Shown: one piece after another, positions 40,145 to 55,018 of the stretch | Numbering within the stretch: position 1 is the stretch's first letter | How the letters are laid out: each line of letters begins with the position of its first letter | Origin: Pyrinomonadaceae bacterium | GTDB taxonomy: Bacteria; Acidobacteriota; Blastocatellia; Pyrinomonadales; Pyrinomonadaceae | DNA: 64,000 nt | Direction: 5' to 3' | Assembly (NCBI GenBank): GCA_017983495.1 | Contig: JAGOBH010000002.1 | Location: 248,001 to 312,000, forward strand | Made by a program: the position numbers and the translations under genes | The notes under the pieces: generated by a model | Seen by the model: only the letters and a program-made list of their open reading frames with translations | What the model was told of the DNA's origin: nothing | Database searches by the model: none

Positions 40145-41827
40145 ATGGATCAAGAAATAGCCTGTCAGAGCCGTAGCGGAGCGGTCACATTACATGCGGA
40201 GAGCATTCCCTTTTCCCGGTTTCCGGGTCAATCGAAGCTGTTCAACGACTATCAGCGTGACCCATTATCATTAAGACGATATTACCCTTCGGCCGTTTCA
40301 AGCCAGGACGAGGTCGCTGGTCGAGCGCCGGAGGTTCTTGCTAGTTACAAGGCGGACCGAAAAATACTCTGCGAAGCACTTACCGAGATCAACATCAAGT
40401 TTGGGGCTGGCCACAAGACGCTGAAGAATATCGAGATGCTGAGGTCCGAGGATACGGTCGCAGTAGTGACCGGGCAGCAGGCCGGACTTTTTTCGGGTCC
40501 GCTATATACGATCTACAAGGCGTTGTCCGCAGTCCGACAGGTTGAGCGGTTGAGAGAACAGGGCGTCAAGGCGGTGCCGGTTTTTTGGGTGGCGACCGAA
40601 GATCACGATTTCGAAGAGGTTTCCAAGACCTATGTTGTCGGCCGTAGCGGCGAATTGGTCGAATCCAAGACCGAACCATCGCATTGTTATGAAAATCTCC
40701 CGGTCGGATATGTAAAGCTCGATGAATCCATTCGACAGGGTGTCGCTGATCTCATCACCTCACTTTCGCCTTCCGAGTTTACTGCCGAGGTGCGGCACCT
40801 GCTCGAAGATAGTTGGAAGCCCGGAGAGTATTTTGGTGATGCGTTTGGCAAACTGCTGACGCACATACTGGGCGACTACGGCCTGATCATTTTGTGCCCG
40901 CTGCATCCGAAACTGAAACAACTCGCTGCCCCGATCTATGTCGATGCTATCAAGCGTTCGGCTGAGATCGTCGACGCATTACGGCGACGCAGCGAAGAGT
41001 TGGTCGCGGACGGATATGTTGCCCAGGTCCTTGTGGGCGAAGATTATTTTCCGCTGTTTTGGCAGGCGGAAAACGATACGCGAAATGCGCTTAAGAAGAC
41101 CGAAAAGGGGACTTTCAGGAAGAAGGACGGATCGCGGGAATTCACCCTGGACGAACTCGCTGAGATCGCAGCGTCTGAGCCCGGACGATTTAGCCCGAGT
41201 GTAGTGCTCAGGTCCGTCGTTCAGGACTATATTTTGCCGACGGTCTGCTATTTTGGCGGTGCTGCTGAGATCGCTTATTTTGCTCAGAGCGGCGAGGTTT
41301 ACCGGTTGCTTGACCGCCCGCCGACATTGATCCTGCATCGGCAGAGTTTTACATTCGTCGAATCTAAACATGCCAAGACCCTGGCCAAATTCGACCTCGA
41401 TCTGGTCGACCTATTTGAAGGATTTGAAGAACTGCTGCCGCAGATAGTGGAAAGGTATCTTAACGCCGACTCTGCCAAGGTATTTGCAGAGGTGGAGGAA
41501 GTCATCAACACTCAGCTCAATCGACTTGACCAGGATCTGTCCGCAATTGACGCAACGCTGGCGGACAATCTAGCGAAGCGTCGCCGCAAGATCATTTATC
41601 ACATCGGGGCACTCAGGAATAAGTTCTACAACGTTCAGGTTCGCAAAGACGCGGTCATCCGGCAGCAGATCGAGGGAATGTTTACTGCACTGCTGCCGCA
41701 CAAGCACCTGCAGGAACGGGCAATAAACGTTTCCTATTTCCTGAACCGATTCGGGCTGAACTTTGTTGACTGGATCTATAATGCCATCGACCTTGACGAC
41801 AGAGGGCATCGCGTCATCCGTTTGTAA
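40145..41827 (+). CDS. bshC: Bacillithiol biosynthesis cysteine-adding enzyme
   Basis: A 560-residue member of the BshC family, which adds cysteine to glucosamine-malate in the last step of bacillithiol synthesis. The family nucleotide-site motif TGQQAGLFSGPLYTIYKALS is near residue 115, followed by PVFWVATEDHDFEE, and the C-terminal coiled-coil region with LNRLDQDLSAIDATL. Presence of bshC implies that this bacterium uses bacillithiol as its low-molecular-weight thiol. bshA and a small cytoplasmic BshB-type deacetylase are not in this window; the PIG-L protein at 50250 is exported and too large for that job. mutL follows 27 bases later, so the two are probably co-transcribed. Confidence 0.93.
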   Translation: MDQEIACQSRSGAVTLHAESIPFSRFPGQSKLFNDYQRDPLSLRRYYPSAVSSQDEVAGRAPEVLASYKADRKILCEALTEINIKFGAGHKTLKNIEMLRSEDTVAVVTGQQAGLFSGPLYTIYKALSAVRQVERLREQGVKAVPVFWVATEDHDFEEVSKTYVVGRSGELVESKTEPSHCYENLPVGYVKLDESIRQGVADLITSLSPSEFTAEVRHLLEDSWKPGEYFGDAFGKLLTHILGDYGLIILCPLHPKLKQLAAPIYVDAIKRSAEIVDALRRRSEELVADGYVAQVLVGEDYFPLFWQAENDTRNALKKTEKGTFRKKDGSREFTLDELAEIAASEPGRFSPSVVLRSVVQDYILPTVCYFGGAAEIAYFAQSGEVYRLLDRPPTLILHRQSFTFVESKHAKTLAKFDLDLVDLFEGFEELLPQIVERYLNADSAKVFAEVEEVINTQLNRLDQDLSAIDATLADNLAKRRRKIIYHIGALRNKFYNVQVRKDAVIRQQIEGMFTALLPHKHLQERAINVSYFLNRFGLNFVDWIYNAIDLDDRGHRVIRL

Positions 41828-43834: not shown

Positions 43835-44035
43835 TGCACAGTACTTGGCATACGCGAGTTTTGCCATTGCGGCTACGTTCTTATGGTCCCCCCCAAAAAC
43901 TGATTCTTCATTTGTAATTTATCCAGTCTGATATTAGTATGTTTGTCGGGACTCACAACTAAGTATACAGGCAGACAGATTGTCGACTATTTTTTGGGCA
44001 CAAAATGCCCGTGGAAAACGTTGAGATTGATCTTG

Positions 44036-45235
44036 ATGAAGCGGATAAACCTCCAGCGTGCGAAATCTCAGATCGCCAGACCGAATACGATCAGGGATAT
44101 TAATCGACAGATCGTCCTTAACTACGTTAGGGACCGTTCGCCGATTTCGCGAGCCGAGATCGCTCGCGAGACAGCTCTTCACCGCTCAACCGTTTCGGTG
44201 ATCACGGACGACCTGGTCTCGGCCGGTCTGATCGTCATGATCGGTGAGGGCAACTCGTCCGGAGGGCGAAAGCCATCGTTATTCAAGTTAAAGACCGGCA
44301 CGCCGGTAGCGATCGGTATCGATGTTACGCCGCGTAATACTACGATCGCGGTGGCCGATCTGGCCGGCAATGTTTTCAAGCAAGAGGTATTTGCCACGTC
44401 GCCTGATGTCGATTTCATGACGTCCCAGATCGTCGAGAGGGTAAAGCGATTTGCATCGGAGTGTGAATCCGGGGGCGTAGAGATCGGGATGAGTGTTCCT
44501 GGACTTGTCGACCAAAATCTAGGCAAGATCTTTCATGTTCCTTATTTCGATTGGCGGGACTGGGATATTTGCCAGCGTTTGGAAAAGGAGACGGGACTTA
44601 AGGTAATAGTCGAGAATGACGCTAACGCCACCGCACTGGCCGAGTTGTGGTTTGGGCACGAAAAGGTCAGGAAGATAGACACATTCGTCATGGTTTTGGT
44701 GGGCGAGGGCATCGGAACCGGTATCATTTTTGACGGGCAATTATATCGCGGGGAAAAAGGTGCGGGCGGCGAATTCGGCCATATGATCGCCGGTGACAAT
44801 GCCCCGATCGACTGTTCGTGTGGGAGCCGTGAGTGCTGGGAAGCCTACGCCTCGGAGAAATCGATGATCCAGCGATATCAGAGCCTCTGCAGCATGGATG
44901 ACCTGAAAGGTAACGACATCGATTTTTCGAACGTGGTCGAACTGGCCCTTAACGGCGAAAAGCACGCCGCTCAGGCTCTAAGGGAAACCGCGTATTACCT
45001 TGGTAACGGGATCTCGAATCTTATCGTTGGGCTAAGTCCGCAGATGGTTGTCGTAAGTGGCCGGATAACCAAGGCATGGGCACTGTTCTCCGATCAGCTT
45101 TATAGAATATCTGAACGAAGCGTATTGGCAGGCTTGCCGCCAACAGAGCTCGTTCCTTCTTCACTTGGTGACGCCCCAACGTTAATTGGGGCAGTGGGTT
45201 TGGTGCTCGCGAGAAAGTTTGGTTCGGCAAGTTGA
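44036..45235 (+). CDS. ROK-family transcriptional regulator (NagC/XylR type)
   Basis: A 399-residue protein with an N-terminal winged helix-turn-helix (about 15-75: NRQIVLNYVRDRSPISRAEI, then ALHRSTVSVITDDLVSAGLI) and a C-terminal ROK sugar-kinase-like domain. The zinc-binding motif is CSCGSRECWE and the sugar/ATP-binding stretch is ENDANATALAELWFG. Members of this group sense sugars or amino sugars and repress transport and catabolic genes. The preferred start is the ATG at 44036 (MKRINLQRAKS); an upstream TTG at 43943 would add an unlike segment. It precedes a receptor gene on the same strand by 213 bases, and is a likely regulator of the following locus. Confidence 0.88.
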   Translation: MKRINLQRAKSQIARPNTIRDINRQIVLNYVRDRSPISRAEIARETALHRSTVSVITDDLVSAGLIVMIGEGNSSGGRKPSLFKLKTGTPVAIGIDVTPRNTTIAVADLAGNVFKQEVFATSPDVDFMTSQIVERVKRFASECESGGVEIGMSVPGLVDQNLGKIFHVPYFDWRDWDICQRLEKETGLKVIVENDANATALAELWFGHEKVRKIDTFVMVLVGEGIGTGIIFDGQLYRGEKGAGGEFGHMIAGDNAPIDCSCGSRECWEAYASEKSMIQRYQSLCSMDDLKGNDIDFSNVVELALNGEKHAAQALRETAYYLGNGISNLIVGLSPQMVVVSGRITKAWALFSDQLYRISERSVLAGLPPTELVPSSLGDAPTLIGAVGLVLARKFGSAS

Positions 45236-45268
45236 AACAAACTTTCTGCAAATGAGTATTAACCTACC

Positions 45269-45297
45269 TTGACATTAATGTGACGCCTGTATTAAAA
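45269..45297 (+). promoter_or_regulatory. Possible promoter of the TonB-dependent receptor gene
   Basis: TTGACA at 45269-45274 with TTAAAA (45292-45297) at 17-base spacing or TATTAA two bases earlier. The -10 element is poor, as in a regulated promoter. The leader to the ATG is about 145 bases. Confidence 0.4.
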
Positions 45298-45448
45298 CTT
45301 TGTTGGAAGCACCGACAAACAATTTGCCGTTTTGGTTTTTATGGTTCCGTGACAAACGGTTATCTTAGAAATCGGTAACAATTTCATGACCGAGACCATC
45401 ATCTGGTTGGTTGACCCTAGTTTCAAATTTTAAGGAGATCATTACTTT

Positions 45449-48388
45449 ATGCCTAAGTCGTTTGTTAGTTCGAGGCACCTTTTCTCGATCCTCGTTTTGT
45501 TTGCTGTGACAATTACTGCGTTGCAGGTACTTGGCCAGTCACAAGCCATTAACGGTCAGATCGAAGGCGTTGTTACAGATTCGGCTGGTGCGGCTGTTCC
45601 AAACGCAACGGTTATCGTGCGAAATGTTGAATCGGGATCGGAACGCTCACTTACTACCGACGCCAGCGGAGCATATCGTTTTCCGCTTTTGCCGCTCGGT
45701 TCTTACAAAGTGACTATCGAATCAGCAAGCTTTAAGCGGCTTGTGCGAGAGGGCATCACGCTTACAACCGGGCAAACGGCAACTGTCAACGCCACGCTGG
45801 AGGCGGGCGGATTGTCTGAGACGGTCACGGTAAATTTGGATTCGCCGATCGCTGACTCCGGCAAGATCGACGTCGGGCGTGTTATGAATAATCGCGAAAC
45901 GCAGAGCCTTCCGCTTGTGTCGCGTAATCCTTACAACTACGCTCTCTTGCAGGCAAATGTGACGGGACGGCCAAATATTGAGTTCGGCGTGCCCAGGATC
46001 AATGCCAATGGCTATACCCGCCGTACAAATTACCAGCTTGATGGCAATAGCAACACACAGGCAGATCGTGGTGGAATTAGGCTTATGCCGATCTCTGACA
46101 CCTTTGTAAGTGAGGTACAGTTGGTTACCAATGGATTTGCTGCCGAATTTGGCGGAACGCCCGGACTGATCATGAACGCCGTCACTCCTTCCGGCACGAA
46201 TGGTATTCACGGGTCGGCTAGTTACCGTTTCCGCCGCACAGGGATGTCGTCGAAGCCGTTTAACCTCGCTCCGTCTGCAATAAAGCCGGAAACGAAAGTT
46301 GACAATCTTACAGGGGCTGTCGGTGGTCCAATTATCAAAGATCGCTGGCATTTTTATGCCGGTTACGAATGGGTGCAGCGAGATCTCGGTGGCGAACCGC
46401 AGCGTACAATTACGATCTCCGATGCAAATAAAGCGGCACTGATCGCAGCGGGTGTCCCTGCCGGGGCGTTTCCGACCGCAATTCCGACCGCTCAGAAGGT
46501 GAACTTTTTCATTTTGCGAACTGATGCTCAGATCAACGATGCTAACCGGCTGAGTGTTCGGTTCAACTACTTTAAGAATCTCTCGCCGGACAACATTGCG
46601 GGAGGTCTGAATACGCTCCAGCGAAGTATCGATTTCGATGATAAATCGTTTTCAGTTGGAACCCAGTTAGCGTCGATCATTCGTCCTGAGATCCTGAACG
46701 AATTTCGATTCCAGTATGCCAAACGTGATTCGCGAAACGTGGCAAATGCCAATTCCGGCACCGGCCCGAGCATAGTTATCACCGGGGTAGCTAATTTTGG
46801 TGCACCTGAGAATGATGACACGATCGCACCGCTCGAGACCATGACCCAGTTTCAGGACAATTTATCCTGGCAAGTTGGTGACCACGGCTTGAAGTTTGGC
46901 GGTGGCGTCAATTGGATCGATGATACAAGGCGGTCAAATGTATTTGCGCGTTATACGTTTCCGACGATCCAGGCTTATCTTGATGCGAAAAACGGTGTAA
47001 ACGTTCGGAGCTACACGAACTATGTCGAAGCCTTTGGAGATGCAAATATTGAGTATAAGTCGACATTCTTTAACTTATTTGCTCAGGATGATTGGAGAGT
47101 CACGCGTCGTCTGAAGTTTAACTTCGGTGTGAGATACGATCTTTACGACATACCTGATGCCGAAGCGTCATCGCCGTTTATTGCCTCGCGTAAATTTAAG
47201 GTGGATAAAAACAACTTTGCACCGCGAGCGGGAATAGTTTATGGACTTCGCGAGGGTAAACTTCCGACCGTATTGAGGGCCAGTGTGGGACTTTATTACG
47301 ACACTGTGTACCTTGATTTCTATCTCCGTGCTCTGCAAAACAACGGTAGCCCGCGATATTTCAACTTTACGTTTGCCCCTGCTACAGCTGGTTCACCGGC
47401 GTTTCCGACGACGTTGGGAAGTTTGCCTGCCGGTGCTGTTCTTCCGGTTCAGAGTATAGAAACGATAGCGACGGACTTTGAGAATATGTATGCAACGCAT
47501 GCAAACATTCAGGTCGAACAGGCTATTACATCGGACCTGTCGGTTACGGCCGGTTTTATTCACTCCAGCGGCCGACACATTCCGCTCTACCGGAACATTA
47601 ATAGAATTAATCCGCTTACGACCCTTGCCGACGGGCGTCCGATATTTAGCAATACGATAAATGCGACGACCAGATTCGATCCGCGTTTCAATAACATTCT
47701 CTTGGCTGAATCAGTCGGAAACTCGAATTACAACGCGTTGACATTGCAACTCAACAAGCGATTCTCCAACGGGTACCAGTTCAGCGCCAATTACACCTTG
47801 TCGAAGTCCGAAGACGACGCTCCGGAACAAAACCTTGTTGCGACTCAGGTAGGAAACCTGGTAGTGCAGGACCCCTCGAATCGCAAACGAGATTTTGGCC
47901 CCTCGCTGGCTGATCAGCGTCACACATTTGTTATGACCTTTGTAGGGCGTCCACAATTCAAGTTTGAAAGTAAGGCGCTAAGATATTTGGTCAATAACAA
48001 TCAGTTTGGCATTATTGCGACCGCGAATAGCGGCGAGCGATTCAATGTAATTGCGGCAAACGATATCAATCTTGACGGATTTACGGGATCAGACAATCCG
48101 GTCGGAATTGGCCGTAATTCTGGCGTGACCCCGAAACAGTTCAATGTTGACTTTCGATATTCGAGGTTCTTCAATATCAATGAACGCTTTAAGATCGAAG
48201 CGTTTGGTGAGTTTTTGAACCTATTTAATATCAACAGTATCTTTCAGTTGAATTCGCTTACGGTGACCACCGATGCCGCAGGCAATCCTACTGGCCCGAT
48301 ACCGACGCCGGCACTGAGAAAAGCGACTAACCAGGTGACCTCACTTGATAGTCGTCAGTTTCAGATCGGCTTCAAGTTCATATTTTAG
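45449..48388 (+). CDS. Oar-like TonB-dependent outer-membrane receptor
   Basis: A 979-residue outer-membrane protein. Signal peptide about 1-30; a carboxypeptidase-regulatory-like Ig domain (about 34-120: QIEGVVTDSAGAAVPNATVI, then YRFPLLPLGSYKVTIES); a TonB plug (about 125-240, with LPLVSRNPYN and YQLDGNSNTQADRG); and a beta-barrel to the C-terminus, which ends in aromatic FKFIF as barrel proteins do. This architecture is the expanded Oar/SusC-like family of Acidobacteria; ligands are mostly unknown and cannot be read here. AAGGAG is 13 bases before the ATG. It is flanked upstream by the ROK regulator and downstream by a symporter pair and an exported deacetylase. Confidence 0.92.
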   Translation: MPKSFVSSRHLFSILVLFAVTITALQVLGQSQAINGQIEGVVTDSAGAAVPNATVIVRNVESGSERSLTTDASGAYRFPLLPLGSYKVTIESASFKRLVREGITLTTGQTATVNATLEAGGLSETVTVNLDSPIADSGKIDVGRVMNNRETQSLPLVSRNPYNYALLQANVTGRPNIEFGVPRINANGYTRRTNYQLDGNSNTQADRGGIRLMPISDTFVSEVQLVTNGFAAEFGGTPGLIMNAVTPSGTNGIHGSASYRFRRTGMSSKPFNLAPSAIKPETKVDNLTGAVGGPIIKDRWHFYAGYEWVQRDLGGEPQRTITISDANKAALIAAGVPAGAFPTAIPTAQKVNFFILRTDAQINDANRLSVRFNYFKNLSPDNIAGGLNTLQRSIDFDDKSFSVGTQLASIIRPEILNEFRFQYAKRDSRNVANANSGTGPSIVITGVANFGAPENDDTIAPLETMTQFQDNLSWQVGDHGLKFGGGVNWIDDTRRSNVFARYTFPTIQAYLDAKNGVNVRSYTNYVEAFGDANIEYKSTFFNLFAQDDWRVTRRLKFNFGVRYDLYDIPDAEASSPFIASRKFKVDKNNFAPRAGIVYGLREGKLPTVLRASVGLYYDTVYLDFYLRALQNNGSPRYFNFTFAPATAGSPAFPTTLGSLPAGAVLPVQSIETIATDFENMYATHANIQVEQAITSDLSVTAGFIHSSGRHIPLYRNINRINPLTTLADGRPIFSNTINATTRFDPRFNNILLAESVGNSNYNALTLQLNKRFSNGYQFSANYTLSKSEDDAPEQNLVATQVGNLVVQDPSNRKRDFGPSLADQRHTFVMTFVGRPQFKFESKALRYLVNNNQFGIIATANSGERFNVIAANDINLDGFTGSDNPVGIGRNSGVTPKQFNVDFRYSRFFNINERFKIEAFGEFLNLFNINSIFQLNSLTVTTDAAGNPTGPIPTPALRKATNQVTSLDSRQFQIGFKFIF

Positions 48389-48410
48389 TCGGATCTGAAC
48401 CATTCGAGGG

Positions 48411-48431
48411 GGCGGACCGGTCATGTCCGCC
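48411..48431 (+). terminator. Weak hairpin after the receptor gene
   Basis: GGCGGAC pairs with GTCCGCC across a seven-base loop; followed by TCCATTCTT, so termination would be partial. Downstream genes could still be reached by read-through. Confidence 0.4.
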
Positions 48432-48448
48432 TCCATTCTTCACATAAG

Positions 48449-48595
48449 ATGAAGCCACACGAAAAAGAAGACAATAGCAACCAAGTCGAGGAACTGCCGG
48501 ATTCCTGGTGGTATCGGGTTTACGCCGCGGTGATCATCAGCCTTGTGCTCGTGCTCGCGGCCTTGTCATTATTTTCAAAGTACTTTTCGAGCTAG
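48449..48595 (+). CDS. 48-aa SSS symporter accessory membrane protein
   Basis: A 48-codon gene ending in TAG seven bases before the symporter ATG at 48602. The polar N-terminus (rich in E, D, N and K) is followed by WWYRVYAAVIISLVLVLAAL and one membrane helix (about residues 24-43). Short single-helix proteins of this style, with an aromatic/Arg motif before the helix, are known as small accessory subunits beside sodium:solute symporters. The position immediately before the symporter gene supports that. No good Shine-Dalgarno sequence is seen. Confidence 0.7.
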   Translation: MKPHEKEDNSNQVEELPDSWWYRVYAAVIISLVLVLAALSLFSKYFSS

Positions 48596-48601
48596 CCTAA
48601 C

Positions 48602-50281
48602 ATGAGATTTTTAGACTGGGCAGTCGTTGTCGCCTATTTGGTCTACGTTATCTGGGACGGGATACGTATGACCAAACACAGCGGCAACGTGGAGGGTTAT
48701 TTCCTGGCGAACCGCAGCTTGCCTTGGTGGGCCGTCGGTCTGTCTGTGATGGCTACTCAGCTTTCGGCGATCACCCTGGTAGGTACGACGGGTCAAGCGT
48801 ATTCGGACGGGATGAGGTTCATCCAGTTCTATTACGGACTGCCGCTCGCGATGGTGATATTGTGTATTACGGTCGTCCCGTTCTTTTATCGGGCAAACGT
48901 CTACACTGCGTACGAGTATCTGGAAAGGCGTTTTGATGCTAAAACACGCAGCCTGACTAGTTTTCTATTTCTGATCTCACGAGGTCTAGGTGTTGGTGTG
49001 ATCATCGCGGCACCATCTGTGATCCTTTCGATAGTACTCGGTTGGAGCGAGGTAGCAACGATCTTTTTGATCGGTCTATCAACGACGTTTTACACGATGG
49101 TTGGCGGCGTGCAGGCGGTTACCTGGACCGACGTCAAGCAAATGGTCGTCATCTTTGTTGGACTGTTTGTCTGCATTATCGTGATCATCTCGCAGTTTCC
49201 GGAGCAGGTTTCGTTTACTGATGGCCTCTTTTTAGCGGGAACACTCGGTAAGCTGCAGACGATAAATACCAGCTTTGATCTGACTGAGAAATACACGATC
49301 TGGTCGGGTTTGATAGCGGCCTTATTCCTGTTTTTGTCATATTTTGGGTGCGATCAGAGTCAGGTGCAGCGATTCCTGACGGCGAAATCTGTTAGTCAGG
49401 GACGGACGTCGTTGCTGATGAGTGCGTTTCTCAAGATCCCGATGCAGTTTATGATCCTGCTGGTTGGCGTGCTGGTATTTGTCTTTTACCAGTTCTCCAC
49501 TCCGCCCATGATCTTCAATTCGGTCGAATCTGCCAAAGTAGAAAATGTTCAGGGATACAAAGAGATCGAAACGCAGTTCCAGTCGGCACACGCTGCCCGC
49601 GAAACGGCTGCATTAGCATTTGTCGGAGATCGAAACGACGACACTCGGCAAGCATATGTGGCGGCCGACACAATCTTCAACGGCGCCCGGAAAAACGCAG
49701 TGGACTTTGTAAAAACTACGACCGGCAACTCGAGTTTTAACGACGTAAATTACGTTTTTCCGGCGTTCGTTGTCGCAAATATGCCGATGGGCATTATCGG
49801 GTTGATCATTGCCGCCATCTTTGCGGCGGCGATGTCGTCGATCTCGGCGGAATTGAATTCGCTTGCGACCGCGACCACCATCGATTTTTATCGGCGACAC
49901 TTCAAGACCGAGGCCAATGACAGACATTATGTGGCATTCGGCCGATTGGCTACATTGGTGTGGGGTGTTTTCGCTTGTATTGTCGCAATGTACGCGACAA
50001 ATCTCGGCTCGCTGATCGAGGTCGTAAACAAATTTGGCTCGTTCTTTTATGGATCGTTGCTGGGCGTTTTCGTGTTGGCCATAGCGGTAAAGCGTGCCAG
50101 GGCACGAGGAGCCTTTTTCGGACTGTTGTTTGGTATTGGTTCAGTCTGGGTAGCAAGTAGCTTTACGAAGATAGAGTTTTTGTGGTTCAACGTCGTGGGA
50201 TGTTTAGTTACAGTTTTGGCGGGATATCTGATAAGCCTAACCGTCAAGGATGAAGACAATTATGTTGCAGTCGAAAATTAA
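48602..50281 (+). CDS. Sodium:solute symporter (SSS family)
   Basis: A 559-residue inner-membrane transporter with about 13 hydrophobic segments. Family features: [21 protein letters not shown] after the first helix, the ISRGLGVG and [10 protein letters not shown] regions, and [12 protein letters not shown] near residue 420, matching the sodium-site segment of SSS proteins. An extra polar loop of about 85 residues (about 305-390, with [20 protein letters not shown]) interrupts the usual pattern. Substrates in this family include sugars, amino acids, inositols and sialic acid. The gene begins seven bases after the accessory gene stop and overlaps the exported PIG-L gene by 32 bases, so the three are one unit. 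Confidence 0.92.
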
Positions 50282-52937
50282 GATTCGTCGTTTGTCGGTC
50301 GTTGCCCTGGATCTAGCTGTCCTGGTCAGCATTATTGTTCTTTCGCTGCCGGTCAGGGCGCAGGTCCGGCCGGTGTACGATCTTGGCTCGAGCGGGCTCG
50401 GCCAAAAGCTGCGTAGACTTCAGACGACCGCTAGTGCGATGCACACCGCCGCACATCCCGATGACGAAGATTCAGGCCTTTTGGCCAGACTGGCCCGAGG
50501 TGATAATGCACGTGTTTCGTACTTGTCGCTAACGCGTGGGGAAGGCGGGCAGAACGTGATCGGCTCGGAACTTTTCGAATCGCTGGGAATTATCCGGACC
50601 GAGGAATTGCTCCAGGCCAGGCGTCTTGACGGTGGGGAGCAGTTCTTCACTCGATTCATGGAATACGGATTTTCCAAGCAGCGTACCGAAGCGGCACGAA
50701 TATGGGGTGAAAAGGAAGTCCTGGGCGATATGGTCCGAGCTATCCGCCTATTCCGGCCACTTGTTGTCATATCGCGCTTTTCAGGGACACCCGCTGACGG
50801 TCATGGTCAACACCAACTCGCGGGCTATCTGACGCCGATCGCTTTCAAGGCTGCTGCGGATCCGAAGCAGTTTCCGGAACATTTTGCAGAAGGACTGGAA
50901 CCGTGGCAGGCCAAAAAACTGTATGTCGGACAGGGCTTTGCTCCGAACGCAGCCAATCCGGCAAGTTTAGTCGTTCCGACCGGCGAATACGATCCGTTGA
51001 TCGGACGATCATATTACGAGATCGCAACCGAAGGGCGCAGCCAGCATAAATCGCAGGAAATGGGTTCGATCGAACCTCGCGGAAAGGCTCAATCAGGGTT
51101 GCGTCTGCTCGAATCGAGCGTTAATGACGTCAAGAGTGATAAGGGCGTGTTCGACGGCATTGATACGTCGATCAAAGGAATAGCTTCTTTTGCCAGCGGT
51201 TCTACTGACCAATTTAAGGCAACGCTTTCCGAATTGCAGCAGACAGCAGAAACCGCGCTCAGAGAATATGACCCGTATCATCCTGAAAAGTTGATCCCGA
51301 TCCTCGCGAAGGGCATGAAGTTGGCTGAAGCAGCAGTAGGCATGAACAGGGATCCGGAAGTGAAGTTCCTGCTTCGCCAAAAGCATAAAGACTTTGCGAA
51401 TGCTCTACAGGCCGCCGCCGGGATTGTTGTTGATGCTCTGAGCGATTCGGAAACGGTCGTGGCGGGCGATACTATTGGTGTCGCTGTACGAGTATTTGCA
51501 CCGGAAGTATCTGGTGTGAAGATCAACGATGTGGCGATCAAGGCACCGGAAGGTTGGACGACAAGCGACGCAGGCGAACCGGCGCAGGATACGAGCTCAC
51601 CGTTCCGACAGCGGAACGAAGTTGCTTTGGGCAGCAAGTTCTTCAAGTTAACTGCCGCGGCGAACGCCTCACCGACTCAGCCGTATTGGCTTGAGAATCA
51701 GCGGGACAAGTTCACTTTTAATTGGTCGGCGGCGGGCCAGGCGGCAAACATGCCGTTCCAAGCCGCTTTGGCCTCGGCTCAAGTCAAAATGAATGTCGGC
51801 GGTGAAGAACTAACGGTCAACGTTCCAGTGACCTATCGATATGCCGATCAGATCCGCGGTGAGATCCGCCGCGACGTCAATGTCGTGCCGATGGTTACCA
51901 ACGCATTGGAATCAAGCCTTGCGGTCATTCCAACATCGGCCAAGGCACAACAGCAGAAGGTCGTAATGTCGGTGACGAATAATTCACCAAAGGGCGTTTC
52001 AGGAACGGCGAAGCTTGACCTGCCTCAGGGCTGGACGGTGAACCCTGCATCGGTCGATTTTGCAATAAAGTCGAAAGGAGCCAAGACCGCGGTGTCGTTT
52101 GACGTGACCATTCCGGCAAATACCAAGGCCGGTGCGTACAACATACTCGCGAAATCGGTTGTCGGCGGTAAAGAATACGGTCAGACGGTTTTCGAGGTCG
52201 CTTATCCGCACATTCAGACACATCGCCGTTATGCACCGTCGGTGCTTGAGGCAAAGGTCGTCGACCTTAAGGTTTCACCGGTCAATGTTGGTTACGTGAT
52301 GGGAACAGGCGACCGTGTACCTGAGGCTATTAAGCTGCTTGGCCTGCCGGTCACAATGTTATCTGAGAAGGATCTGACGACCGGTGACCTTTCGAAATTT
52401 GATACGATCGTTATCGGAATTCGAGCATCGCAGGTTCGGCCTGACTACACCGCTAACAACGGCCGTCTGCTTGAGTTCGTCAAGAACGGCGGAACGTTGA
52501 TCGTCCAGTATCAGCAAAGCGAATTTATTCGGGACAATCTGGTTCCGTTCCCGGCCAAGATGGAATCGGTCGTAAATGGTACGCAGCGAGTGTCGAATGT
52601 CCGTGTGGTTGACGAAAATGCTCCGGTGACGATGCTCGTCCCGGATCACGTTGTTTTCAATTTTCCAAACAAGATCGTCAGCAGCGACTGGGACAATTGG
52701 GTACAGGAACGCAACCTCTACACGCTCACCGGCCTCGATCCGCAATACACCGCACTCTTGTCGAGTCAGGATGAAGGTGAGGCTCCGGTAACCGGCGGAC
52801 TGGTTTACGCGAAGATCGGGAAGGGACACTATATTTACAATGCCTACTCGTTCTTCCGTCAGTTGCCGACGGGCAATCCCGGTGCATACCGATTGTTCGC
52901 GAATATGCTAAGTTTGCCTAAATCACCAGCAAAATAG
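50250..52937 (+). CDS. Exported PIG-L (LmbE-like) deacetylase with C-terminal extensions
   Basis: An 895-residue protein. It overlaps the symporter gene by 32 bases; a second ATG at 50262 has AAGGA 11 bases upstream and is equally possible. A signal peptide ends near PVRAQ (about 38). The PIG-L domain (about 60-300) has the zinc motif AHPDDE (H69, D71, D72) and HGQHQLAG further on, as in N-acetylglucosaminyl deacetylases. Then come a helical region (about 300-400), NEW3-like beta-sandwich domains (about 400-670) and a glutamine-amidotransferase/ThuA-like fold (about 690-800: [34 protein letters not shown]). It should cleave acyl groups from an amino sugar or similar compound in the periplasm. 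Large size and export make it distinct from cytoplasmic BshB. Confidence 0.9.
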
Positions 52938-52947
52938 GCAATTCAAG

Positions 52948-52988
52948 GCACAGGTACGCGCGGTAATCCGAGCATACCTGTGCTTTTT
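52948..52988 (+). terminator. Terminator of the symporter/PIG-L unit
   Basis: GCACAGGTA (52948-52956) pairs with TACCTGTGC (52975-52983), followed by TTTTT; 11 bases after the stop of the PIG-L gene. Confidence 0.88.
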
Positions 52989-53013
52989 CATTTTTCCCAG
53001 GTATTACCAGATC

Positions 53014-54501
53014 ATGACCGAACAAATAATAGAAGAGAAGTTTCCCGCACAGAGTTATAAGGAAAACGTCCTGGCCGACTGTTTTGCGGATGCAAAGGAG
53101 TATTTTCTCGATCCTTATTATCAGGTCGATCTTGCACATGCATTGATGCTTGCCGAACAGGGCATTATCACGGACAAAGAGCTAAAGATACTGCTCAACG
53201 CGTTGAATCTTTTGGATTTTGACGCTATCCGCGCCCGGACGTACGACGGCACGTTCGAGGATCTTTTCTACTTGCTCCAACAGGAGATCGCAAAATTGTG
53301 CGATCCGGACATTGCCGGAAAGCTCCACACGGCGCGCAGCCGTAACGATATTGATGTTACGATCTACCGGCTCTATCTTCGGCCGCAGTGTCTGAAGCTG
53401 CTAAGTTCGGCGATGGACCTGCGAACGGTTCTGCTCGACCTTGCCGCCAAGAACCACGAAACGGTGATCCCGGCCTACACGCATACGCAACCCGCACAGC
53501 CGTCGACGATGGCTCATTTCCTACTCGCAATGGCGGAGAACACAGGACGCGACATAAAGCGCCTGCAGCGTGCGTACGAGAATATGAACTTTTGCCCGCT
53601 CGGTTCGGGTGCGATCACGACGACAGGATTTCCGATCGATCGTCACCGTGTTGCAGAGTTACTCGGGTTCAAGGCTCCGACGGTTAACTCATACGCGTCG
53701 ATCGCGTCGATCGACTACTTTACCGAACTGTTGGGTGCAACGTCGGCAATGCTGGTCAATATCGGCAAATTCGCACAAGAGTTCCTGCTGATGGCGATGA
53801 TGGAATTTAACGCCATCAGGCTGCCGGATGGTTTTGTACAGGGTTCGTCGATCATGCCGCAAAAGCGCAATCCGGTCGCCCTTGAACATATCAGGGCTAT
53901 CGGTAGTAAGGCTCTCGGTCAGTGCCTCGGGGTAATGACCAGCGTCCACAACACGCCGTTTGGCGACATCAATGATGTCGAGGATGATCTGCAGCCTCTG
54001 ATATACAGCGGTATTCGCGATGCCAATCGTGCGGTCTCGTTATTCGCAAGCACGCTAAAATCGGCGACTTTCAATTACGAAGTTCTGAAAAAGCGTGCGA
54101 GCGAGAATTTCATTGCGGTCACCGAACTCGCCGACACGATCGTCCGGGTTGAGAATTTACCGTTTCGCATTTCCCACAGCATCGTCGGGAAATGCGTCCG
54201 CCGTGCGATTGACGAAAATTCCGATGTCACATATGAGATCGTCCAGGGCGTGGCGAACGAGGTTATCGGCCGGGATCTTAAGTTGTCGCGTGAGGAACTT
54301 GAGCTTGCCGTTTCGCCGGACAATTTTGTGAATATCCGCACAATTTATGGCGGCACGGCACCTAGCGAGACGCGTCGGGCACTCGCGGTCGAGCGGGCGG
54401 CAGAAGTGGCGGATGCCGAGTGGTTTATTTCAGCGACCGGGAATCTGGACGGAGCAAAACGGCAACTTTCCGAGCTTGTTCGGGAAAGGTCAACGAACTG
54501 A
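53014..54501 (+). CDS. argH: Argininosuccinate lyase
   Basis: A 495-residue member of the fumarase/aspartase superfamily. It has LHTARSRNDIDVTIYRLYLR, the HTQPAQPSTMAHFLL motif and the superfamily signature GSSIMPQKRNPVALEHIR, which fits argininosuccinate lyase best although the last part (QKRNPVALEH) also recalls adenylosuccinate lyase. It cleaves argininosuccinate to arginine and fumarate, the last step of arginine synthesis. No argG is nearby. The start is a plain ATG with no strong Shine-Dalgarno sequence. It stands between two terminator-type boundaries and converges on the biotin carrier gene 16 bases away. Confidence 0.85.
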   Translation: MTEQIIEEKFPAQSYKENVLADCFADAKEYFLDPYYQVDLAHALMLAEQGIITDKELKILLNALNLLDFDAIRARTYDGTFEDLFYLLQQEIAKLCDPDIAGKLHTARSRNDIDVTIYRLYLRPQCLKLLSSAMDLRTVLLDLAAKNHETVIPAYTHTQPAQPSTMAHFLLAMAENTGRDIKRLQRAYENMNFCPLGSGAITTTGFPIDRHRVAELLGFKAPTVNSYASIASIDYFTELLGATSAMLVNIGKFAQEFLLMAMMEFNAIRLPDGFVQGSSIMPQKRNPVALEHIRAIGSKALGQCLGVMTSVHNTPFGDINDVEDDLQPLIYSGIRDANRAVSLFASTLKSATFNYEVLKKRASENFIAVTELADTIVRVENLPFRISHSIVGKCVRRAIDENSDVTYEIVQGVANEVIGRDLKLSREELELAVSPDNFVNIRTIYGGTAPSETRRALAVERAAEVADAEWFISATGNLDGAKRQLSELVRERSTN

Positions 54502-54517: not shown

Positions 54518-55018
54518 TCAATCAAGCATCACCAGCACATCGCCGGCATTGACGTTATCGCCTTCGGCAAAATGAATGACCTTGATGGTTCCGTCTTTCG
54601 GAGCTTTCAGTTCGTTTTGCATCTTCATCGCTTCGACGACGATGACTCCGTCGCCGTGGGTGACCGTATCTCCGACCGCCACAAGAATACGCACGACTTT
54701 TCCGGGCATAGCGGTTTTTATCACTGACGAACCTTCGCCCGAACCTGAGCCGTTGTCGGTTCCGCGAAGCTGTTTTGGGTCGACGATCTTAACGTCGATG
54801 GTATGAGCGCCCATTCGGACGGTCGAGACTCCGTTTGCCGCGGTAAAGACCGAGGCCTCCGATATCTTGCCGGAATTTTTGATCAACCAGACATCGTTCT
54901 CGGGTTCGGTCACCTCGAGCGAATACTCACGTCCGTCAACAACGGCGCTGACCTGATCACCATCTTTTTTGAACTCAAGGTCCACCAATTTACCGCCGAT
55001 CTCAGCTTTTAGTTTCAT
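54518..55018 (-). CDS. Biotin carboxyl carrier protein (acyl-CoA carboxylase type)
   Basis: A 166-residue biotin carrier. The C-terminal half is a biotinyl domain with the biotin lysine K132 in VVEAMKMQNELKAP; the usual paired hydrophobic positions around AMPGKVVRILV and GDTVTHGDGV are conserved. The N-terminal 80 residues form a beta-rich docking segment as in propionyl/acetyl-CoA carboxylase alpha subunits, but separated from the carboxylase. A G/S-rich linker (about 88-97) joins the two. It begins exactly at the stop of the deoxyhypusine-synthase-like gene (TAGATG). Partner biotin carboxylase and carboxyltransferase genes are not in the window. Confidence 0.88.
   Translation of the reverse strand: MKLKAEIGGKLVDLEFKKDGDQVSAVVDGREYSLEVTEPENDVWLIKNSGKISEASVFTAANGVSTVRMGAHTIDVKIVDPKQLRGTDNGSGSGEGSSVIKTAMPGKVVRILVAVGDTVTHGDGVIVVEAMKMQNELKAPKDGTIKVIHFAEGDNVNAGDVLVMLD

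Follow-up and report, generated by a model that had tools for sequence, protein, structure and literature searches.

What does a bacterium take up with an outer-membrane receptor, an exported deacylase-type enzyme and a sodium symporter that are encoded side by side behind a ROK-family repressor? The question is raised by a 64,000-nucleotide stretch of a Pyrinomonadaceae genome (contig JAGOBH010000002.1, positions 248,001 to 312,000; hereafter the window). An earlier interpretation, made without database searches and called here the sequence-only reading, held that the locus takes in a compound, possibly an N-acetylated sugar, removes an acyl group in the periplasm and imports the product. In outline this was right, as uptake and deacylation are assigned to what proves to be a conserved module. 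The N-acetylated sugar is probably wrong as the substrate: links to bshA, bshB1 and bshC, a fumarate-releasing lyase and glucosamine (GlcN)-type catabolic genes in related genomes speak instead for bacillithiol or one of its S-conjugates. Bacillithiol (L-Cys-D-GlcN-L-malate) is a widespread bacterial counterpart of glutathione. Gene order, protein families, the bsh linkage, a lyase phylogenetically distinct from ArgH and a conserved operator suggest that the cluster is probably a regulated uptake-and-breakdown (or salvage) module for this thiol or its S-conjugates.

Gene set and conserved order

The five genes of the sequence-only reading are real and lie on one strand where it had placed them, but the set was incomplete, since a lyase gene immediately downstream belongs to it as a sixth member. 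The module and its internal hairpin are as follows.

44036..45235, plus strand: ROK-family repressor with an N-terminal helix-turn-helix (HTH) (PF00480; NagC/Mlc-like, equivalog of neither)
45449..48388, plus strand: Oar-like outer-membrane receptor (CarboxypepD_reg, PF13620, and OMP_b-brl_4, PF25183)
48449..48595, plus strand: 48-residue single-helix symporter partner (homologues directly 5' of SSS genes)
48602..50281, plus strand: SSS-family Na+ symporter (PF00474)
50250..52937, plus strand: exported PIG-L/LmbE amidase (PF02585, NEW3 and a C-terminal Rossmann-like region)
52946..52990, plus strand: intrinsic terminator-like hairpin between the PIG-L and lyase genes (by folding)
53014..54501, plus strand: argininosuccinate-lyase-like protein, proposed fumarate-releasing GlcN-malate lyase (by synteny and a clade apart from ArgH)

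Conserved clustering in relatives, whose absence the sequence-only reading had named as grounds for giving it up, was looked for and is present. By synteny, relatives within the genus and from other genera of its family share the order receptor, 48-residue protein (p48), SSS, PIG-L, lyase, a recurrence far beyond chance. In L036, L041 and L044 the PIG-L stop codon is overlapped or directly followed by the lyase gene. A ROK orthologue occupies the same place in most of the genus; three genomes (L035, L037, L044) have the module at a place other than the mutL site, and there it lacks this ROK gene. The ROK open frame starts at 43943, and the ATG at 44036 fits as its start. The overlap of the SSS and PIG-L genes is, as claimed, exactly 32 bases if the first ATG is used, and 20 with the in-frame ATG at 50262. 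The terminator said to close the operon after PIG-L also proved to be a strong hairpin (-26.4 kcal/mol, z = -5.5, with a 12-bp outer stem followed by a T-rich tail). Promoter and terminator scans returned no more matches than shuffled sequences; the hairpin was missed by the scan owing to its long loop and was revealed by folding.

Linkage to bacillithiol synthesis

The window genome encodes BshA, BshB1 and BshC, and bshC lies upstream of the module within the window:

40145..41827, plus strand: BshC, the bacillithiol cysteine-adding enzyme, a context gene (TIGR03998 457 bits, cut-off 266)

In about ten families of Acidobacteriota, homologues of the exported PIG-L have bshA or bshC next to them or close by. 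PIG-L adjoins bshC in f32 (gaps of 166-316 bp) and f65 (90 bp), the two are ~2 kb apart in f10 and f59, and bshA is the adjoining gene in f63, f49, f33, f67 and f23. Complete blocks also occur, in the orders PIGL-BshC-BshB1-BshA-SSS (L168) and BshC-BshB1-BshA-PIGL-SSS (L171, L172, L173), with BshA scoring 517 bits in L168 and 390 bits in L171 against a cut-off of 274. The bsh-linked PIG-Ls fall into several separate clades of the PIG-L tree, one of which also contains the lyase-linked PIG-Ls of f49 and f64. Repeated adjacency to bshA/B/C in unrelated lineages, the pattern to be expected of a role in bacillithiol metabolism, is thus what was found. Co-occurrence goes in the same direction: BshC is encoded by 155 of the 160 Acidobacteriota genomes that bear PIG-L and by 49 of the 137 that do not, although these genomes share ancestry. 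Two of the five BshC-less PIG-L genomes (G019, G185) carry bshA beside PIG-L.

Two irregular neighbourhoods may be mentioned here. In L169 and L170 (f32) a gene that is argG-like by its N-terminal sequence stands directly or nearly 5' of bshC-PIGL. L091, from a bin labelled Gammaproteobacteria, has an SSS-PIGL-lyase arrangement close to the Blastocatellia version, and BshC was not found in that genome; this is either a horizontal transfer or a misbinned contig.

An argininosuccinate-lyase-like enzyme outside the ArgH clade

The sixth protein has a Lyase_1 domain, the signature GSSxMPxKxN and a conserved TxRSRND motif, which place it in the aspartase/fumarase superfamily. It shares its signature with ArgH and EDDS lyase, so that release of fumarate is the expected reaction. 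Against the argH model TIGR00838 it scores 346 bits (cut-off 279.5), whereas the genome's true argH reaches 627 bits. That gene lies elsewhere, beside argG, and its presence together with the tree led us to reject a role of the window lyase in arginine synthesis: in the tree a single clade (98/95) unites the acidobacterial and alphaproteobacterial lyases, the Deinococcus lyase is next to it (86/75), and ArgH (100/100), EDDS lyase and a lyase of Cereibacter stand apart. Other argH neighbours on plasmids (Azospirillum, Sinorhizobium, Acinetobacter and two haloarchaea) were set aside because they fall outside the lyase clade. The same holds for the Amadori-compound (fructosyl-aspartate) reading, prompted by the Cereibacter lyase and its deglycase-like SIS protein.

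When the phylum was searched with the window lyase, 42 of 297 genomes were positive, and all 42 encode bshC. In four genomes of f20 the lyase gene is directly adjacent to bshC, and in two of these a ROK gene stands 5' of the lyase. The lyase follows PIG-L in f49, and SSS follows the lyase in f28, f33, f36, f49, f61 and f64. In f14 the order is a reversed PIG-L gene and then, on the opposite strand, ROK, receptor, lyase and amino-acid permease.

The exported PIG-L protein

The sequence-only reading had called this protein an exported PIG-L deacetylase, and its export and its family are supported. PF02585 is matched at 46 bits (cut-off 28), and the His-Pro-Asp-Asp motif and distal His that complete our definition of the family are present. 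The zinc ligands, by homology H69, D72 and H188, are (nearly) invariant in sets of 16 and 38 sequences. By inspection, a hydrophobic N-terminal segment ends near LPVRAQ, and the AlphaFold 2 model (pLDDT 91) has a helix at 9-31; its first domain matches LmbE-type deacetylases in Foldseek.

PIG-L enzymes act on many N-acyl-glucosamines (PMC4101496), and the cytosolic Bca of Bacillus and Mca cleave thiol S-conjugates (PMC4101496, PMC4360819). With these members of the LmbE-like superfamily the window protein shares the PIG-L/LmbE fold, the zinc-ligand positions and the proposed cut at a cysteinyl-glucosamine amide. Bca and Mca are small cytosolic proteins, whereas the window PIG-L is an exported protein of about 895 residues that also carries NEW3 and, at its C-terminus, a Rossmann-like region; a symporter and a receptor are linked to it. 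Its sole NCBIfam match is Mca, at 47 bits against a curated cut-off of 277, which falls short of equivalog status. At most, then, we infer that it works like Bca.

Receptor, symporter and small partner

Of the domains of a TonB-dependent receptor, the barrel was detected, together with CarboxypepD_reg, and the plug domain had no match at E 0.001. Receptor and lyase are conserved together in families f14, f64 and f6. The symporter scores 263 bits on TIGR00813 (cut-off 184) and is above the cut-off of PF00474. SSS genes lie near PIG-L in 26 of 59 independent groups. The nearest solved relative of the window symporter is the sialic acid transporter SiaT, of the same family as vSGLT; in contrast to both, it is encoded in an operon with a one-helix partner of 40-50 residues. 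The 48-residue gene, which the sequence-only reading had paired with the symporter, is real. Homologues of its product, mostly of about 40-60 residues and marked by a W..Y motif and a single hydrophobic helix, are encoded directly 5' of SSS in more than 40 loci, often with a 4-bp overlap, in Acidobacteriota, Ignavibacteriota, Bacteroidota, Eisenbacteria and Verrucomicrobiota. The protein has no Pfam or NCBIfam match above cut-off. The family recalls MAP17, the single-helix partner of human SGLT2. In family f14 (L242-L246, L257, L260-L262) the gene after that of the lyase encodes an APC amino-acid permease (PF13520) instead of SSS.

Predicted control by the ROK repressor

Both the ROK domain and the HTH were found in the repressor. 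The gap between its gene and the receptor gene contains TTGACA, TATTAAA and the palindrome TTTGTYGGNNNNNCCRACAAA, and a weaker site precedes the ROK gene itself:

45269..45296, plus strand: predicted receptor-operon promoter, TTGACA and TATTAAA, conserved in an alignment of eight relatives
45299..45319, no strand: predicted ROK operator, 21-bp palindrome TTTGTTGGAAGCACCGACAAA, kept in ROK-bearing relatives
43942..43962, no strand: weaker copy of the predicted operator, TTTGTCGGGACTCACAACTAA, with 2 mismatches, 74-94 bp 5' of the ROK start codon

In the alignment, the palindrome is kept with a few changes in all eight ROK-bearing sequences and missing from the four that lack this ROK. It is the sole match in the whole genome at up to one mismatch, and control matches numbered 0. 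Its confinement to relatives with this ROK gene supports the predicted control of the receptor by ROK, as the sequence-only reading had it. The weaker copy suggests autoregulation; second sites 5' of ROK are also present in G038 and, by position, in G141. Repressors of the NagC/Mlc type likewise combine an HTH and a ROK domain with a palindromic operator at the promoter, but the window ROK differs from them in that only one target region is predicted for it across the genome, and in having an operator sequence of its own.

Versions in other phyla

On plasmids of Aminobacter, Thalassospira, Roseinatronobacter, Rhizobium and Qingshengfaniella, ROK and PIG-L genes are divergent from genes for a sugar-ABC transporter, the lyase and a sugar kinase of PfkB or ribokinase type. 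The Aminobacter PIG-L has no evident signal peptide, which fits ABC import of the intact compound. Deinococcus ficus combines a ROK-family protein, a lyase, an exported PIG-L/NEW3 protein, ABC genes, a second PIG-L and a kinase. Roseomonas has ABC genes, a lyase, a ROK kinase and an SIS protein whose best match is the GlcN-6-P deaminase NagB-II (313 bits, below the cut-off of 430). In Roseinatronobacter, a gene beside the PIG-L operon (L266:15294-15947) is annotated as of the cysteine dioxygenase family; Pfam and NCBIfam did not confirm the annotation.

A proposed pathway

A PIG-L amidase acting on an N-acyl-glucosamine, a lyase releasing fumarate from a 2-substituted succinate such as malate, and amino-sugar genes together define a set of bonds, and bacillithiol has exactly these. 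Combined with the bsh neighbours, this leads us to infer the substrate, each reaction, the direction of transport and the inducer. The outer-membrane receptor would carry bacillithiol or an S-conjugate into the periplasm, where the exported zinc PIG-L would cut the cysteinyl-glucosamine amide to give cysteine and GlcN-malate, as Bca does in the Bacillus cytosol. The symporter, with its 48-residue partner, would couple sodium to the import of a product, most likely GlcN-malate. The lyase would then act in the cytosol and eliminate fumarate from the malyl group, and the glucosamine so freed would enter hexosamine metabolism. ROK is predicted to bind the palindrome before the receptor gene until an amino-sugar product releases it.

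A partial parallel is the glutathione import system of Staphylococcus aureus with Ggt, in which a transporter and a peptidase take in a low-molecular-weight thiol as nutrient sulfur (PMC10355420). The logic of a transporter with a cleaving enzyme is common to both, but the S. aureus proteins (a gamma-glutamyl transpeptidase and an ABC transporter, for glutathione and with no lyase) are unrelated to those of the window.

Several points weigh against the bacillithiol pathway. The link to the thiol consists of gene neighbourhood and co-occurrence among genomes that share ancestry. Most PIG-L loci outside the named families have no bsh gene in the flanks read, and in Bacteroidota co-occurrence is uninformative because BshC is almost universal there (242 of 247 genomes). 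In the tree, long branches lead to the PIG-Ls of Alphaproteobacteria and Deinococcus. To our knowledge, a GlcN-malate lyase activity has not been described. Finally, the importer varies with lineage, from SSS to the APC permease of f14 and sugar-ABC systems in Alphaproteobacteria, which makes it unsure which half of the cleaved compound is imported.

Alternative explanations

PIG-L and SSS genes inside the biosynthetic operon of several families, with neither receptor nor lyase, would suit detoxification or recycling: the cell's own bacillithiol S-conjugates would be exported, PIG-L would cut them outside the cytosol, SSS would retrieve GlcN-malate for BshC, and the lyase would remove any excess. 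Conjugates are indeed cleaved in this way by the cytosolic enzymes Bca and Mca (PMC4101496, PMC4360819). We nevertheless hold recycling to be unlikely, since the window set with its receptor, ROK regulator and lyase looks catabolic, the alphaproteobacterial plasmid versions use sugar-ABC importers, and the PIGL-SSS-lyase bin L091 shows no BshC (the genome may be incomplete or misbinned). The permease linked to the lyase in f14 instead of SSS brings another substrate to mind: the lyase might free fumarate from S-(2-succino)-bacillithiol or 2-succinocysteine by C-S cleavage, with the permease importing the cysteine-side product. The lyase superfamily does act on several leaving groups. This is improbable, as ROK regulators, sugar-ABC importers, sugar kinases and a NagB-II-like deaminase accompany the lyase clade, and an amino-sugar product fits them better.

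The breadth of PIG-L enzymes, which accept many N-acyl-glucosamines (PMC4101496), would equally admit a different glucosamine conjugate with a dicarboxylate or aspartate group, the bsh neighbours then reflecting shared regulation or chance. In keeping with this, most PIG-L loci outside the named families have no nearby bsh gene, and the more distant Cereibacter lyase accompanies a fructoselysine-deglycase-like SIS protein. That lyase is outside the clade, and bshA/bshC adjacency recurs in about ten families, with a lyase-bshC pair in f20, so there is little likelihood in such a conjugate. As for the N-acetylated sugar, taken in, deacetylated in the periplasm and then imported, the NagC-like ROK regulator and the PIG-L family membership agree with it. 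It leaves the lyase and the bsh linkage unexplained, the cluster is without chitin, sugar-lyase or nag genes, and we regard it as very improbable indeed. Catabolism of N-acetyl sugars or sialic acid has no supporting genes in the cluster, SiaT being merely the nearest solved structure.

Novelty and implications

Literature searches returned work on bacillithiol synthesis and on cytosolic conjugate cleavage and nothing on uptake or catabolism; nor did any paper found deal with PIG-L together with sodium symporters, with bacillithiol in combination with PIG-L and a symporter, or with a GlcN-malate lyase. The chances seem to us about even that this is the first bacillithiol breakdown pathway, with an exported amidase, a Na+ symporter with a new 48-residue subunit, and a new fumarase-superfamily enzyme that yields glucosamine and fumarate from GlcN-malate. 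Alphaproteobacteria that probably do not synthesize bacillithiol would then follow the same logic with importers of another kind, and the thiol would serve them as food.

Among low-molecular-weight thiols, bacillithiol and its derivatives have been described as those with the broadest distribution (PMC6282198). If the pathway is true, a large unnamed family of exported PIG-Ls in Acidobacteriota, Bacteroidota, Gemmatimonadota and Ignavibacteriota would gain a function, a class of genes annotated argH would be corrected and a new lyase reaction named, and the SSS family would acquire an undescribed one-helix partner. It would also provide a simple way to test whether bacteria use one another's thiols as food.

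Beyond the lyase gene, a deoxyhypusine-synthase family gene (PF01916; 55019-56260, minus strand), here in a bacterium, adjoins the gene for a small biotin/lipoyl-domain protein (54518-55018).

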